In this document: positions 33,089 to 41,533 of the stretch, piece after piece | Layout: every line of letters begins with the position of its first letter | Position numbering within the stretch: the first letter of the stretch is position 1 | From: Bryobacterales bacterium | Lineage (GTDB): Bacteria; Acidobacteriota; Terriglobia; Bryobacterales; UBA6623 | Assembly: GCA_028819575.1 (NCBI GenBank) | Contig: JAPPLB010000172.1 | Span: forward strand, 1 to 64,000 | Direction: 5' to 3' | Length of the DNA: 64,000 bases | Made by a program: the position numbers and the translations under genes | The notes under the pieces: generated by a model | What the model saw: the letters and a program-made list of their open reading frames with translations, nothing else | Databases searched by the model: none | What the model was told of the DNA's origin: nothing

Positions 33089-33724
33089 TCAGCGGTATTT
33101 GTCGAGAGAGATCTCGAAATAGAAGAGATCGCGGCCTGTGTTGAGGTTTCGGATGCCCGAGATGTAGATGGCGGCCCCGGGAATGGGATTTGATTCCGTG
33201 CCCGCCTGGTAGTAGAAGAAGCCGCCGACGGAGCTTCGCGGCGGGACGACCGGTGCTTGAAAAGCGCGACTCGAGATTTCTGGTCTGGCAAGTGGACCTT
33301 TCTTGACCTTGGGACGGTTCAAGCCGGGAATACCGGGGATGTAGCGCGGGCGCTCCTTCGGACGGGTGTTGGGTTGATAGTAGGCGAGGTCCTCGGCGGA
33401 AGTGGGTTCTATCCCGTCCCGATCGGATGTGATGAAGCGAACCATTAGGTCCTCGAGACCGAGCGCATCATCGCTGTTGTTGTTGATCACTACGAGGACC
33501 GGCAAGAAACCATGCTTCATAGGCTTGGCCTTGCCGAAGGCTCCCTTGATCTCTTTGTCGGTGTGAAAAGGCTTCACGGCAACAGTGACTTTGTCTTGCT
33601 TCTGGCGGGCCGGATATTTGTTGGCCGGCTTCAGCTTGAAAGTATCGTCGGCGGGGATCGCCAGGGAGCTGAAAACCAGGGTCAGGACAAGGCCTGCGAG
33701 GCCGGAGAAACGGCTTCTTGTCAT
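33089..33724 (-). CDS. Secreted protein of unknown function
   Basis: This protein of 211 residues has a signal peptide (MTRSRFSGLAGLVLTLVFSS). The first half looks like a small beta-sandwich: QDKVTVAVKPF, GFLPVLVVINNNSDDALGLE, LMVRFITSDRDGIEP. A Pro/Lys-rich linker (RPRYIPGIPGLNRPKVKKGP) leads to a final beta part with GGFFYYQAGTESNPIPGAA and FYFEISLDKY. I do not recognise a family. It is divergent from the waaA-lpxK gene, with only 17 bp between start codons if this ATG is used; the alternative ATG at 33748 would overlap the other gene's start. Confidence 0.7.
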   Translation of the reverse strand: MTRSRFSGLAGLVLTLVFSSLAIPADDTFKLKPANKYPARQKQDKVTVAVKPFHTDKEIKGAFGKAKPMKHGFLPVLVVINNNSDDALGLEDLMVRFITSDRDGIEPTSAEDLAYYQPNTRPKERPRYIPGIPGLNRPKVKKGPLARPEISSRAFQAPVVPPRSSVGGFFYYQAGTESNPIPGAAIYISGIRNLNTGRDLFYFEISLDKYR

Positions 33725-33741
33725 AATGGAATAGGTTACGG

Positions 33742-36192
33742 TTGACATATTTGGCGTACAATCTGCTGGCTGCTTTGGCGGCGATTGTTGCCGTTCCCTA
33801 CGACCTGATCCGCGGCTTGAGGCGCGGTCGGCCATGGAGCAGCCTAGCACAGCGGCTGGGCTGGCTTCCTCACTCATTTCATCAGACTGCCTCCGACTCG
33901 ATCTGGTTACATGCGGTGTCGGTCGGAGAGGCCGCCTCATGCGAAGGCTTGGTTCGGAGGTTGAAAGAACGGCACCCCACTCTGCCCGTTTTTGTTTCGA
34001 CCGGCACCGCTACAGGACAGGCTCTCGTACGGGATAAGCTTTCGGGCGTGACGGCAGGTGTGTTCTATGCGCCGTTAGATCTGCCGTTCGCGAACCGTCG
34101 CGTGCTGAATACCATCCGCCCACGATTGGTGGTCATTTTCGAGACGGAGATTTGGCCGAATCTCTATCGGCAGGTCAAGCAGGCAGGCGCGGGCTTGATG
34201 ATTGTAAACGGTCGGGTTTCGGATCGGGCCTTTCCGAGCTATCGGCGTTTTCGGTTGCTGTTTCGGAGTGTGTTGCGTCATGTGGATCTGAGTCTGGCTC
34301 AATCAGAAAAGGACCGCGAACGGATGATTGCCATCGGGGCGGATGCCGCGCGGGTCGAGGTCGGAGGCAACCTGAAGTATGACTTCCAGGCCTCTGACGC
34401 CGTGGAGCCTGATGCTGTGCGCCGGTTCCTTGCTCAGTGTCAACCCGGACCGTTGATCATCGCGGGCAGCACCCGGGAGAACGAGGAACGGCCCGTTGTC
34501 GAGGCCTTTCAGCAAGTGGCTGAGCGCTACGAAAAAGCTCTGCTGATCGTAGCGCCGAGGCATCCGCGCCGGTTTGAAGAGGCGGAGTCGACATTGGTCG
34601 CATCGGGACTGCCAGTGGTGCGGAGATCGGCGTTGAACTCGCTCTCAGCCGGAGTGGAGTTGCCGGCGGTCCTGCTGTTGGATTCACTCGGGGAGTTGTC
34701 GTCGCTGTACGCATTGGCGGATGTGGTGTTCGTCGGTGGCTCGCTCAACGGATGGGGCGGGCACAACGTCTTGGAACCGGCGTCGTCGGGACGGCCCGTC
34801 GTGGTCGGGCCTGCGATGCAGAACTTCGCCGAGATTACTGAGACTTTGCTGTCTGAGCGGGGCATGATCCGGATTGGAGGACAGGAAGAGCTGGGAGCGG
34901 CTTTGCTTGATCTGTTGAGGGACCGTGATGCTGCGCTGGCTATCGGCGAACGAGGACGCCGGGTGGCCGAGGCGCAGCGGGGCGCGACGGCGCGCGCCAT
35001 CAATGCGGGGATGCGGCTGTACGGCAACGCCGTTCCGGTCTCTATTCCGAGTTGGGCGCGCCGGGTCCTGTTGGGCGGGCCCGCAATGACCTGGGGCGCC
35101 GTGGCCCGACGGCGGGCTGCTTCTTTTTCAGCAGGCAACATCTCGGCCAAACGCTTGAAGAGTTTCACTCTTTGCGTGGGAAATCTCTCAGCGGGAGGCG
35201 AGGGCAAGACGCCCGTGGTCGCCTGGCTCGTGGAACGGCTTTACGAGCGTGGTTATCGTCCGGGGGTGTTGACACGGGGATACCGGCGGGACTCGCGGGA
35301 GCCTCGGATCATCGTGGAGCCGGAGTCGGAACCCACAGCCGAACAGATTGGAGATGAGGCTTATCTGTTGCGGAGGAGGTTTCAGGATTTGGAGATTACG
35401 GTTCCAATGGGAGTGGGTGCGGATCGGTTTCAAGTCGGCACGGAGTTGGAAGCCCGGTTTCCGATTGACGTGACCGTGATGGATGACGGATACCAGCATT
35501 TCGCCTTGGAGCGGGATTTCGATTTGCTCGTGGTTGATGCAAGCCGGCCTTTTGGCGGCGGACGGATGTTGCCCCTCGGGCTTTTACGCGAGCCTATTTC
35601 GGGTGCATCTCGAGCTCGATCGATCTTGTTGACGAAGACGCAGCCCAAAGTCCGATACAACGGAATCGAATCAGTGCTGAGACGTGTAAACCCGGAGGCG
35701 CCGATCTTTCGTACTCAGACGCGTGCGGCGGCGATTGTGGACGTGATGTCGGCGGCGGAGAAACCGCTTGACAGTTTGGTGGGCGAGAGATGCGTCGGGT
35801 TCTGCGGACTGGGAAATCCGGATTCGTTTTGGCGCACTTTGGACGCAGTGGGGATTCGCCCGGTGGAGCGTTTGGCGTTTCCAAATCACCATCGGTACTC
35901 CGCGCGCGACATAGACAAGATCACGGAGATGGCGCGACGGGCGGATGCCGGCGTGTTGTTGACGACGGAGAAAGATTTCGCGAACCTGCAGTCGGCGCTG
36001 GATTTGCCTCGAGAGAGCGGGTCTGCGCGGGTCTGCGCGGCTCTCGGTCCGCTGCGCTTGTTCTGTCTTCGCGTCGAGCAAGATGTGGAGCCCGGCTTGT
36101 TGCAGTTCATCTTGTCGGCGCTGCCGAGTTCCCAAATCCGCCCGAACCAGACATGGGGGCCTCCGTCGGTAGTGTCCTCAAGGGAGTCGTGA
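33742..36192 (+). CDS. waaA-lpxK: Fused Kdo transferase (WaaA) and lipid A 4'-kinase (LpxK)
   Basis: One uninterrupted frame of 816 residues carries two complete enzymes. Residues 1 to about 430 are the GT30 Kdo transferase WaaA/KdtA: an N-terminal membrane anchor, HAVSVGEAAS with the catalytic Glu63, GVFYAPLDLP, FETEIWPNLYRQ and the sugar-nucleotide site FVGGSLNGWGGHNVLEPA. Residues of about 432-816 are LpxK: P-loop GNLSAGGEGKTP at 480-491, VMDDGYQHFALERDFDLLV, MLPLGLLREP and LLTTEKDFANL. LpxK phosphorylates the disaccharide-1-phosphate to lipid IVA, and WaaA then adds Kdo from CMP-Kdo at the inner face of the inner membrane, so consecutive steps are joined, in reverse order along the chain. 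The start is TTG. waaF follows after 18 bp. Confidence 0.93.
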   Translation: MTYLAYNLLAALAAIVAVPYDLIRGLRRGRPWSSLAQRLGWLPHSFHQTASDSIWLHAVSVGEAASCEGLVRRLKERHPTLPVFVSTGTATGQALVRDKLSGVTAGVFYAPLDLPFANRRVLNTIRPRLVVIFETEIWPNLYRQVKQAGAGLMIVNGRVSDRAFPSYRRFRLLFRSVLRHVDLSLAQSEKDRERMIAIGADAARVEVGGNLKYDFQASDAVEPDAVRRFLAQCQPGPLIIAGSTRENEERPVVEAFQQVAERYEKALLIVAPRHPRRFEEAESTLVASGLPVVRRSALNSLSAGVELPAVLLLDSLGELSSLYALADVVFVGGSLNGWGGHNVLEPASSGRPVVVGPAMQNFAEITETLLSERGMIRIGGQEELGAALLDLLRDRDAALAIGERGRRVAEAQRGATARAINAGMRLYGNAVPVSIPSWARRVLLGGPAMTWGAVARRRAASFSAGNISAKRLKSFTLCVGNLSAGGEGKTPVVAWLVERLYERGYRPGVLTRGYRRDSREPRIIVEPESEPTAEQIGDEAYLLRRRFQDLEITVPMGVGADRFQVGTELEARFPIDVTVMDDGYQHFALERDFDLLVVDASRPFGGGRMLPLGLLREPISGASRARSILLTKTQPKVRYNGIESVLRRVNPEAPIFRTQTRAAAIVDVMSAAEKPLDSLVGERCVGFCGLGNPDSFWRTLDAVGIRPVERLAFPNHHRYSARDIDKITEMARRADAGVLLTTEKDFANLQSALDLPRESGSARVCAALGPLRLFCLRVEQDVEPGLLQFILSALPSSQIRPNQTWGPPSVVSSRES

Positions 36193-36210: not shown

Positions 36211-37251
36211 ATGAAGCTGCTTGTTCGGGCCACGAACTGGTTGGGCGACGCCGTGATGTCGCTGCCTGCGCTACGGGAAATCCGGCAAGCTCACCCCGCT
36301 TGGGAGATCGTGCTTCTGGCGCGGCCTTGGGCGGAGGATCTTTATGGCCGCGAGGGTGTGTGTGACCGGACGATTCCCTACGAGCACACGGGGCGGCATC
36401 GAGGGGCGCTGGGAAGGTGGAGGTTGGCGCGTACGTTGCGCGCGGAGAGATTCGACCGTGTCATTCTGCTTCCGAACTCTTTCGATTCGGCGCTCGTGCC
36501 TTGGCTGGCCGGCGTGAGGGAGCGGATTGGCTATGCGCGAGACGGCCGCAGTCTGTTGCTGACAAAGGCGGTTCGACAACCGCTTACAGGCGAGGTCCCG
36601 CCTCACCAGCGCTACTACTACCTGGAGATGCTGCGCCGTGCCGGATTACTGGCGGATATGCCTGAATGCCGGGAAATACGGCTGGCGTGCGCCGAAGAGG
36701 CCGCCGAGGCGGGGAGGGAGTTCTGGTCGGCGAGGGGCGAGAACGGAACGCCCTGGATCGGAATAAGCCCGGGGGCGGCAAATAGCGTCGCAAAGCAATG
36801 GCCCCCGGAGCGGTTCGCTGAGGCGGCTTGCCGGGTGGCTCGCGAGGTGGGCGCGAAGGTGGTGATCTTCGGATCCGGCGCGGATGTGGAGAGCGGGCGT
36901 TCGATTGCCGAGCAAATCGACCTGCCGGCATACAATCTGGTGAATCAGACGACGCTTCGCCGGTTCATTGACTTGACGGCCTGTTGCGAAGTGTTCCTGA
37001 CGAACGACTCGGGGGGGATGCACGTAGCGGCGGCTCTGGGTGTTCCTACGGTCGTGATATTCGGCCCGACGGATGAAACAGCCACGGGTCCGGCCCATTC
37101 CTGCGCGCGGGTCGTGCGAGAGCCGGTGGATTGCAGTCCTTGCCTGCTGAAGACCTGTCCGATTGACCATCGCTGCATGACACGCGTTACACCGGATCGG
37201 GTGGTTGCGGAAGCGTTGCAGCTCATCCGGAACAAGAATGCAGTTCAGTAG
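36211..37251 (+). CDS. waaF: Lipopolysaccharide heptosyltransferase II (WaaF-like, GT9)
   Basis: This protein of 346 residues is a GT9 glycosyltransferase that adds heptose to the inner core. Landmarks: KLLVRATNWLGDAVMSLPAL at the N terminus (typical of WaaF), FDRVILLPNSFDSALVPWLA, RIGYARDGRSLLLT, WIGISPGAANSVAKQWPPER and the ADP-heptose-binding segment FLTNDSGGMHVAAALGVPTV followed by FGPTDETATGP. A Cys-rich tail (DCSPCLLKTCPIDHRCM) is usual for the family. It lies 18 bp downstream of waaA-lpxK and is surely in the same transcript, which supports an LPS core with heptose in this organism. Confidence 0.94.
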   Translation: MKLLVRATNWLGDAVMSLPALREIRQAHPAWEIVLLARPWAEDLYGREGVCDRTIPYEHTGRHRGALGRWRLARTLRAERFDRVILLPNSFDSALVPWLAGVRERIGYARDGRSLLLTKAVRQPLTGEVPPHQRYYYLEMLRRAGLLADMPECREIRLACAEEAAEAGREFWSARGENGTPWIGISPGAANSVAKQWPPERFAEAACRVAREVGAKVVIFGSGADVESGRSIAEQIDLPAYNLVNQTTLRRFIDLTACCEVFLTNDSGGMHVAAALGVPTVVIFGPTDETATGPAHSCARVVREPVDCSPCLLKTCPIDHRCMTRVTPDRVVAEALQLIRNKNAVQ

Positions 37252-37996: not shown

Positions 37997-38104
37997 GCTG
38001 ACGGTAAGCTGCCTGAAGTGGATTTGTTCTCTACTTGGGACAAAAACTGGTTGCGGATTGACCACCGCTAGACATTTATGGTATTGAAGATCAGCGGTTC
38101 CCAA

Positions 38105-38111
38105 AAGGGGG
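38105..38111 (+). promoter_or_regulatory. Shine-Dalgarno AAGGGGG deciding the GTG start of TonB receptor 2
   Basis: A purine run lies five bases before GTG at 38117. The in-frame ATG at 38078 has no such site. This parallels the GTG start of TonB receptor 1. Confidence 0.6.
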
Positions 38112-38116
38112 TTTCT

Positions 38117-41100
38117 GTGAAAGGCAATAGAACTAAAATCACGCAGATTTTTCAGGCTCTTGTTGTAACGAGCCTGGTCCTTTGCATGACGGCCAGCGCT
38201 TCGGCGCAAGTCACCGCAGGCGGCGTGCGAGGGGTCGTGACCGATGCGGCCGGCGCCGTCGTGCCTGGCGTGGCCATCGAGATCACAAACCTTGAAACGG
38301 ACTTTACGGCCACCGCCGAGAGCAGCGGCGCCGGAAACTACGTCATGGTGAACATTCCGGTGGGCCCGTACCGCCTCGAAGCGACGCTGGACGGCTTCAA
38401 GACCTATGTGGCAGAAGACCTTCAGGTTCTCACAGCCACCACATCGACGTTGAACATCACCATGGAAGTCGGCGAGCTGGTGCAACAGATCACGGTTTCC
38501 GAGACGATCGCGCCCATCACGGTGGTGGAGACCTCCGAGGTCAGTACGAACGTGGAAGAGCGGGTCGTGATGGACCTCCCACTGCAGGTGCAAAATGGCC
38601 GCCGGCAAGCAGAGAACTTCATTTTCTTGACGCCCGGCGTTGCCGGAGACACCTTCTCGAAGTCCTATAACGGCAGTCCCGACCTGGCGCAGGTAGCCAT
38701 GGTGGACGGCATCGCCTTCTCGAACGCGGAGGTGCCAGGCCGGTTCACCACGTTCGCTCCGCCGTTCGAGTCGGTCGAAGAGTTCAAGGTTTCGAGCACG
38801 CTGTATCCGGCGGAGCTGGGCCGCGGCTTCGGAGTCACGAACTACAAGATCAAGTCGGGCACGAACGACTACCACGGGAACGCTTTCGAGTTCCTGCGCA
38901 ATGAGAAACTGGACGCCAGCGGGTTCTTCGCCGGCTCGAGGGCTCCGACCCGGCAGAACGAGTTCGGAGCAACCATTGGCGGACCGATCATCAAGAACCG
39001 CACGTTCTTCTTCTTCAACTACACGGGTTTTCGGCGCCGCGGCTCGCGTCCGACCTCGCTGCTGACGCTGCCGCCCACCGCCTTCCGTTCCGGCGACTTC
39101 TCGAGGCTCATACCGGAACTGAACATCATGGTCTTCGATCCCGCCACCACGCGCGATGACGGAATGGGTGGATTCGTTCGCGATGCGTTCCCGAACAACA
39201 TGATCCCGGCGAGCCGCCATGATTCCTTGGCGGGGCAGGTGACCTCGCTCATGCCGACCCCGGATACCAGCGCGCTCTTCAACAACTTCCTCACGCGCTC
39301 GGAGTCTCCGACCAACGAAGACCATTTCGTGTACCGGATCGACGAGCAGATCAACGACAGCAACAAGTTCTCCTGGACGCACTGGCGGAACCTTAACCCT
39401 GTTGCGACGGCGATCGGCAGCTTCGGCCGGGATGCGCCGCTGGACAACGGTTTCCCGGGCGGAGGTTATTTCCAGGGCATGCGGGCGAACTGGGACAGCG
39501 TCATCAACCCGACTCTGCTGAACCATTTCGCATTCGGCTTCTCGGGCACCTTCGGGTTTGGCCGCGGGTTCGACACGCGGAACGGCGCCGAGATCCTCTC
39601 CATACCGGGCTTGCCGTCGTCGTACGCCGGCACGACCAGTTTCCGTATCGGCCACTACACGGGATTCGGGAATGCCGGAGCGCAAGGGGACGCCCGGTGG
39701 GACCACACCTATAACTATTCGAACACCACGACGATTATTCGAGGCAAGCATCAGATCAAGGTCGGTGGTGAACACTGGGCGCAGTCGTTCCGGGACTTCA
39801 ATGTCCTCAACGGAGGCGGAACAGCGGGCACGATGACTTTCAACCGGCTCTTCACGTCCCAGCCCAACGCCGACGACTTCGCCCGACAAGGCGAACCCTA
39901 CGCCAGTTTCCTGCTGGGTCAGGTCAATTCGCTTCGACGGCTGGTCGGAGGAGAGGAACGAACGCTGAGAATCCCCTACCTGGGGTTCTTCTTCACCGAC
40001 ACCATTCAGATGGGCCCCAGATGGACACTGAGCCTCGGGGTCCGTTACGACATCGCGTTTCCCTGGCGGGGCAAGGATCCCGACCGGGCCTCCGCGATCG
40101 ATCTCAACATGTCCAATCCGGGCGCCGGCGGGCTGCCGGGAGCGCATGTCTTCGGCAACGACGCCATCGTGCCCGCCGCGGACAAGGGGGCATTCGGCCC
40201 GCGGGGCAGCATCGCCTATCAACTGGACGACAAGACCGTCGTTCGCCTGGGCTACGGGATCATCTACAGCATCTCGAATGCGTCGACCACGGGGTCGGTA
40301 CAGTTCAACAACAACTTCGACAACGGTTTTCTGGGATTTCAGAACCTCGTGAGCACCGACAACGGGATCACGCCGGCCGGTATGCTGAAAGACGGTTTTC
40401 CGTCATTCACGACTCCGCCGCGCGGTCCCGAGCTGGGCATCGGGTCAACGGTTGATTTCTACAACGGGTCCGCCGGCTTGCAGGCCTACCAGCAGACCTG
40501 GACCTTGAACATTCAGCGCCAGTTGCCCTACCTGATCCATCTGGATCTGGCCTACGTCGGCAACAAGGGACAGCGGCTTTCCGCAGGGTTGGAGAACCTC
40601 AACCAGGTGCCGTCCAGCTACCTGAGCCTCGGGCCCTTGCTCAACCAGCGATTCGACTCGCCAGATGCCATTGCCGCCGGCATCACTGCGCCGTGGGACG
40701 GTTTCGGGGCAGCGCTCGGAGGAGCGGCCACCGTGAACCAGGCGTTGCGGCCCTTCCCGCAATTTACCGGCATCAACAACCCCTGGCAGCCCATCGGCGC
40801 GTCGAGCTACCACTCCTTCCAGATGAAACTGCAGAAACGCTTCTCGGACGGCCTGTCATTCTTGACCAGCTACACGCTGAGCAAAAACCTCACGAATACC
40901 AGCCTCGCGGCGTTCGCGGCCTTTAACGGAGGCGCCCGCGATACGGCGAACCGGGGTATCGAAAAGGCCATCGCTCCCAAGGACCAAACACATAACCTCG
41001 TATCGAGCTTCGTCTACGAGTTGCCTTTCGGCAAGAACGTCTCTGGACCGGCCGCCGGGTTCCTGAAAGGCTGGCAAGTCAGCGCCATCGTTCGCTACGC

Positions 41101-41533
41101 CAGCGGGCAGCCTCTTGGGATCAGCGGAGGACCGCCGATTCCGCTGTTCGGAGGCGGCAATCGGCCGCACCGTGTCGCCGGCGTGAGCGGCCGGTCGAAC
41201 GTGAGCGCGGGCAGCTTCGACCCGGGGCGAGGGGACCGGTACCTGAATGCGGATGGTTGGGTTCAGCCGGCTCCTTTCACCTTTGGAACGGGTGCCCCGC
41301 GTGAGCCGAACTTGCGGAACTTCGCGTTCTTCAACGAAGACTTTTCGATCATCAAGCGCACGTATATCGGTGAGACGATGAATGTCGAGTTCCGGACGGA
41401 GCTCTTCAATCTGTTCAACCGAGTGCGATTCGGCAACCCGAATACGAGTTCCACCAGTGGCGCCTTTGGCCTTGTAGGGGGACAAGGCAATCCGCCCCGC
41501 CAGATTCAGTTCGGGTTGAAGTTCAACTTCTAG
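38117..41533 (+). CDS. TonB-dependent outer-membrane receptor, Oar-like, with carboxypeptidase-regulatory-like domain (receptor 2)
   Basis: This outer-membrane transporter of about 1138 residues has the same layout as receptor 1. The signal peptide ends at SASAQ. A carboxypeptidase-regulatory-like domain follows (VRGVVTDAAGAVVPGVAIEI to STLNITMEVGEL). A plug domain contains LPLQVQNGRRQAENFIFLTP, MVDGIAFSN and VEEFKVSSTLYPAELGRGFG. A long barrel follows (EFGATIGGPIIKNRTFFFFN), ending with QIQFGLKFNF. The two receptors share the plan but are not close copies. It is followed by a good intrinsic terminator and then by the LamG/Ig-like secreted protein gene. The substrate is unknown. Start: GTG at 38117 because of the ribosome-binding site; ATG at 38078 is possible. 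Confidence 0.92.
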   Translation: MKGNRTKITQIFQALVVTSLVLCMTASASAQVTAGGVRGVVTDAAGAVVPGVAIEITNLETDFTATAESSGAGNYVMVNIPVGPYRLEATLDGFKTYVAEDLQVLTATTSTLNITMEVGELVQQITVSETIAPITVVETSEVSTNVEERVVMDLPLQVQNGRRQAENFIFLTPGVAGDTFSKSYNGSPDLAQVAMVDGIAFSNAEVPGRFTTFAPPFESVEEFKVSSTLYPAELGRGFGVTNYKIKSGTNDYHGNAFEFLRNEKLDASGFFAGSRAPTRQNEFGATIGGPIIKNRTFFFFNYTGFRRRGSRPTSLLTLPPTAFRSGDFSRLIPELNIMVFDPATTRDDGMGGFVRDAFPNNMIPASRHDSLAGQVTSLMPTPDTSALFNNFLTRSESPTNEDHFVYRIDEQINDSNKFSWTHWRNLNPVATAIGSFGRDAPLDNGFPGGGYFQGMRANWDSVINPTLLNHFAFGFSGTFGFGRGFDTRNGAEILSIPGLPSSYAGTTSFRIGHYTGFGNAGAQGDARWDHTYNYSNTTTIIRGKHQIKVGGEHWAQSFRDFNVLNGGGTAGTMTFNRLFTSQPNADDFARQGEPYASFLLGQVNSLRRLVGGEERTLRIPYLGFFFTDTIQMGPRWTLSLGVRYDIAFPWRGKDPDRASAIDLNMSNPGAGGLPGAHVFGNDAIVPAADKGAFGPRGSIAYQLDDKTVVRLGYGIIYSISNASTTGSVQFNNNFDNGFLGFQNLVSTDNGITPAGMLKDGFPSFTTPPRGPELGIGSTVDFYNGSAGLQAYQQTWTLNIQRQLPYLIHLDLAYVGNKGQRLSAGLENLNQVPSSYLSLGPLLNQRFDSPDAIAAGITAPWDGFGAALGGAATVNQALRPFPQFTGINNPWQPIGASSYHSFQMKLQKRFSDGLSFLTSYTLSKNLTNTSLAAFAAFNGGARDTANRGIEKAIAPKDQTHNLVSSFVYELPFGKNVSGPAAGFLKGWQVSAIVRYASGQPLGISGGPPIPLFGGGNRPHRVAGVSGRSNVSAGSFDPGRGDRYLNADGWVQPAPFTFGTGAPREPNLRNFAFFNEDFSIIKRTYIGETMNVEFRTELFNLFNRVRFGNPNTSSTSGAFGLVGGQGNPPRQIQFGLKFNF

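Follow-up and report, generated by a model that had tools for sequence, protein, structure and literature searches.

The question raised by this locus is whether WaaA (KdtA) and LpxK are truly carried here by one protein, how widely such a protein occurs and what it might do. The window analyzed is a stretch of 64,000 nucleotides from a Bryobacterales bacterium, and positions 33742-36192 of its forward strand encode a complete WaaA/KdtA and a complete LpxK in a single protein. The frame of this waaA-lpxK fusion gene contains no internal stops, translates into 816 residues and ends at the stop codon 36190-36192; its start codon is uncertain, the candidates being TTG at 33742, 33751 or 33775. 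The initial annotation had described one 816-residue frame with the signatures of both enzymes, and the coordinates, the length, the motifs and the Pfam and NCBIfam matches agree with that description; Glu63 in SVGE, GGHNVLEP, the P-loop (G485-T490), DDGYQH, LREP and TTEKD were all found. Both enzyme assignments hold, and so does its statement that LpxK and WaaA perform consecutive membrane-associated steps. Taken singly, the two halves are unremarkable representatives of established enzyme families.

The WaaA/KdtA half (33742-35034, + strand, residues about 1-431) was delimited by Pfam, NCBIfam, a fold match and conserved residues. The KdtA N-domain Glycos_transf_N (PF04413) was recognized at residues 34-214 (E 5e-58) in Pfam, and the WaaA models of NCBIfam cover residues 5-422 (E 3e-102), the best of them scoring 342 bits, which is below the model's own equivalog cut-off of 438 bits; five WaaA sub-models exist there, with high lineage-specific cut-offs. 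The family assignment was therefore based on the Pfam match, the catalytic residues and the fold. A helix is predicted at the N-terminus (residues 2-28), and model residues 28-429 match the WaaA of Aquifex aeolicus 2xci (VIA: Z 21.7, rmsd 4.8, 354 aligned), a match that, together with PF04413, identifies the GT-B fold of WaaA/KdtA. Glu63, the counterpart of the catalytic E31 of A. aeolicus, and the G, H, N and E of the GGHN..E motif occur in all 42 fused proteins. The GGHNVLEP stretch reads GGHNVLEA in the fused proteins L085, L086 and L090 and in their relatives (genus g168).

The LpxK half (35053-36126, + strand, residues about 438-795) was delimited by fold match, residues and Pfam, and it follows a short linker of about residues 432-437 (35035-35052, + strand) placed from the AF2 model and the VIA ranges. 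The LpxK domain (PF02606) lies at residues 448-752 (E 2e-77; 260.9 bits against a cut-off of 27), and the NCBIfam lpxK model TIGR00682 is matched above threshold (188.8 bits against 91.95). Model residues 438-795 match the whole chain 1-315 of A. aeolicus LpxK 4ehx (VIA: Z 27.8, rmsd 3.8, 311 aligned). The half comprises an N-terminal helix (438-464), the P-loop G485-T490, D538, D581/D582 and H716, taking D99, D138/D139 and H261 as the reference residues for the last three positions; K489, D538, D581, D582 and H716 are kept in every one of the 42 fused proteins. The AF2 model, built from an alignment of 16 sequences, reached a pLDDT of 80.6 and a pTM of 0.76, and it retains the helix 438-464 at low confidence (pLDDT about 53-62). 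As modelled, two complete predicted folds are joined by only a few residues.

LpxK and WaaA catalyse consecutive reactions that complete the anchor holding lipopolysaccharide in the membrane. In the established pathway, WaaA acts on the lipid IVA that LpxK produces (Opiyo et al., 2010; PMC3087551). We consider it highly probable that the fusion gene, which would have arisen in the ancestor of the Bryobacterales, encodes one bifunctional membrane-associated LpxK/WaaA enzyme, and that its benefit is most likely 1:1 synthesis and co-location. The C-terminal half would act as lipid A 4'-kinase, converting tetraacyl-disaccharide-1-phosphate into lipid IVA with ATP, and onto this lipid IVA the N-terminal WaaA half would then add Kdo from CMP-Kdo, as a mono- or bifunctional transferase. 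Both halves would share their membrane placement, and the two consecutive steps would be held together in fixed proportion on the cytoplasmic side of the inner membrane. That lipid IVA might go straight from the LpxK half to the WaaA half is our guess, and an unlikely one; were such channelling true, free lipid IVA would hardly accumulate and the two steps would no longer be separately regulated.

Judging from sequence, both halves are very likely active, because each is present in one copy, serves lipid A synthesis and is under purifying selection. In comparison with the 92%-identical separate assembly L033, dN/dS was 0.26 for WaaA and 0.32 for LpxK and was highest around the linker (0.62 for residues 429-472). 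Across 42 aligned fused proteins the tested catalytic positions are invariant, apart from Thr/Ser exchange in the P-loop and a single deviation at the position equivalent to His143. The genome (5.37 Mb, 98.7% complete, in a 200-contig assembly) contains no second lpxK or waaA copy, the LpxK and WaaA profiles matching once each, both at the fusion, in accordance with the initial annotation, for which a separate complete copy making one half redundant would have counted against the proposal; lpxB is present elsewhere in the genome.

A first alternative to a bifunctional enzyme is that protease cleavage in the linker, or an internal start, yields two separate proteins from the fusion, which then act as two enzymes. 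The junction is indeed short and the least conserved part of the protein, and in a fusion from a distant genome (G279, discussed below) it keeps a start-like ATG with GGAAGG upstream; nevertheless, no conserved internal start was seen in the order, and the methionine at the window's junction (ATG in the region of 35086-35088) is absent from L034 and most others, so that we regard two products as improbable. Even less probable is that one half is a decayed passenger and the fused frame retains a single activity. This could draw on the segment of the first LpxK helix, whose hydrophobicity is slightly lower where LpxK is fused than where it is separate (median over the best 15-residue windows 1.18 vs 1.44, p 0.002, from rows that are not phylogenetically independent); the same reduction might fit a WaaA anchor that now serves both halves, and the retention of catalytic residues, the dN/dS of about 0.3 in both halves and the single genomic copy of each gene all speak against decay. 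The bifunctional LpxK/WaaA enzyme thus remains our preferred reading, and the fusion looks real and functional.

The initial annotation had left the breadth of the fusion as not known, and this can now be answered in part, for the Bryobacterales, a sister family and samples of two other phyla. Across essentially the whole order, the fusion is fixed. Matches to the fusion query were found in 192 of 200 sampled Bryobacterales genomes; the best 150 of these 192 all run through the junction in a single frame, as do 36 of the remaining 42, giving 186 of 192. The one stop that was flagged, in G411, marks where the gene naturally terminates, and the six genomes in which the junction is not covered mostly reflect contig ends. 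In G463, a contig ends at LpxK and the sequence upstream of it is dissimilar, while a weak WaaA match is found on another contig. The named relatives that carry the fusion include Bryobacterales, Bryobacteraceae and Solibacteraceae MAGs. Reversion to separate genes within the order was also considered and, G463 apart, rejected: genomes with two matches, among them G351, G388, G399, G310 and G420, have single frames with a divergent stretch, and contig ends interrupt most of the others. A MAG titled Bordetella parapertussis (L045, CALQCC020000006.1) carries a Bryobacterales-type fusion, as in G187 of the same order, and is probably a mislabelled record.

The single frame is also present in the separate assembly L033 and in single-contig genomes, G300 and G332 among them, and the 38 fused sequences of the order form one clade (SH-aLRT 99) in the quick trees built for either half. 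A sequencing or assembly error that lost a stop or shifted the frame could be imagined, since waaA and lpxK are adjacent in the relatives read, a single substitution or indel being enough to join the pair, and since the window comes from an assembly of 200 contigs, but for the window it is refuted by this order-wide conservation, its probability being practically nil, and it is possible only for the isolated case of G279. The frame is accordingly continuous near 35.0 kb, as the initial annotation required, many independent assemblies reading the junction in one frame.

Outside the order, the two genes are separate nearly everywhere sampled in the phylum. The class is represented in the sample by one further family, the sister family f3, which gave separate WaaA and LpxK matches in 30 of 30 genomes. 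In the unfused pairs read in the phylum, waaA is followed by its neighbour lpxK, the lpxK ATG overlapping the waaA TGA (ATGA, -4) in many of them and a single in-frame stop lying between the genes in others. The fusion probably arose from these two neighbouring genes becoming one, an event in which, in the ancestor of the order, waaA and then lpxK would have come into one frame. The initial annotation had stressed that the domains stand in reverse order of the pathway; the order itself is as described, but it carries no special meaning, because the unfused genes have the same operon order. In G201, G071, G215 and others, LpxK lies within long open frames that resemble fusions; these were rejected, since the frames overlap in GC-rich DNA and waaA is read in a different one. 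The fusion was not seen among the matches listed for 299 genomes around a Pasteurellaceae genome and 118 around a Bacteroidota genome; in about ten of the 299, waaA and lpxK share a reading frame and are separated by one or two stops.

A WaaA-LpxK fusion is also present in the distant Acidobacteriota MAG G279 (L059; G279:C203:5752-8004), the sole genome of its order in the sample. It falls apart from the fusion clade of the Bryobacterales in both trees, and, taken by themselves, the strongly supported branches of the LpxK tree do not require two fusion origins. Being one MAG with a start-like ATG at its junction, G279 is a second and weaker case, probably of independent origin.

The neighbourhood of the gene bears on where the fusion took place. 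Upstream, outside the fusion, an uncharacterised gene (33089-33724, - strand) runs divergently and encodes 211 aa from the ATG at 33724; the N-terminus of its product is hydrophobic, and Pfam gave no match. It is found divergent from waaA-lpxK across the order and from the unfused waaA in f3 (e.g., G023, G049, G094 and G103). Because this gene adjoins waaA in both groups, its position indicates that the fusion occurred in place, at the ancestral waaA-lpxK position. Weaker relatives of it occur elsewhere in the phylum, and its product is possibly an envelope protein linked to LPS synthesis. Downstream, waaF (heptosyltransferase II; 36211-37251, + strand; TIGR02195, E 1e-63; PF01075) begins 18 bp after the fusion stop on the same strand, as first annotated; several relatives also have it beside the fusion, while others do not. 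Further on, a 1151-aa frame (38078-41533, + strand) resembles, by eye, a large TonB-dependent receptor of acidobacterial type whose N-terminal domain is carboxypeptidase-like.

What is new here is an order-fixed domain fusion of two well-known enzymes. No description of a WaaA-LpxK fusion was found in the searchable literature, chiefly papers open without subscription, nor in the sections of Opiyo et al. (2010; PMC3087551) considered here; the combination of domains may already be recorded in protein databases. The fusion represents an old natural experiment indicating that the lipid A 4'-kinase and the Kdo transferase can stay tethered 1:1, which bears on the question of spatial organisation in late lipid A synthesis. 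It also provides a gene-fusion marker for the Bryobacterales and a ready construct for the structural study of two membrane-associated enzymes, and it calls for caution with annotations that name one half only.

Compared with known systems, the WaaA half shares its fold with A. aeolicus WaaA (PDB 2xci/2xcu) and with the C-domain of A. baumannii WaaA (4bfc), together with the catalytic Glu, the motifs of the CMP-Kdo domain and the predicted N-terminal helix, but unlike known WaaA/KdtA it bears an entire LpxK at its C-terminus. The whole chain of A. aeolicus LpxK (PDB 4ehx/4ehy/4lkv) aligns with the other half, which keeps the P-loop and the equivalents of D99, D138/D139 and H261; in contrast to known LpxK, this half has no start of its own, and its N-terminal helix, on average less hydrophobic, comes directly after WaaA. 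The LpxC-FabZ fusion of Bacteroidetes, Chlorobi and Verrucomicrobia likewise joins neighbouring genes around the lipid A pathway in whole groups (PMC3087551), although it involves other enzymes, and LpxC and FabZ do not follow one another in lipid A synthesis. The waaA-lpxK gene cluster reported as frequent by Opiyo et al. (2010; PMC3087551) has the same two genes in the same order as the fusion, but as two genes where the Bryobacterales have one.
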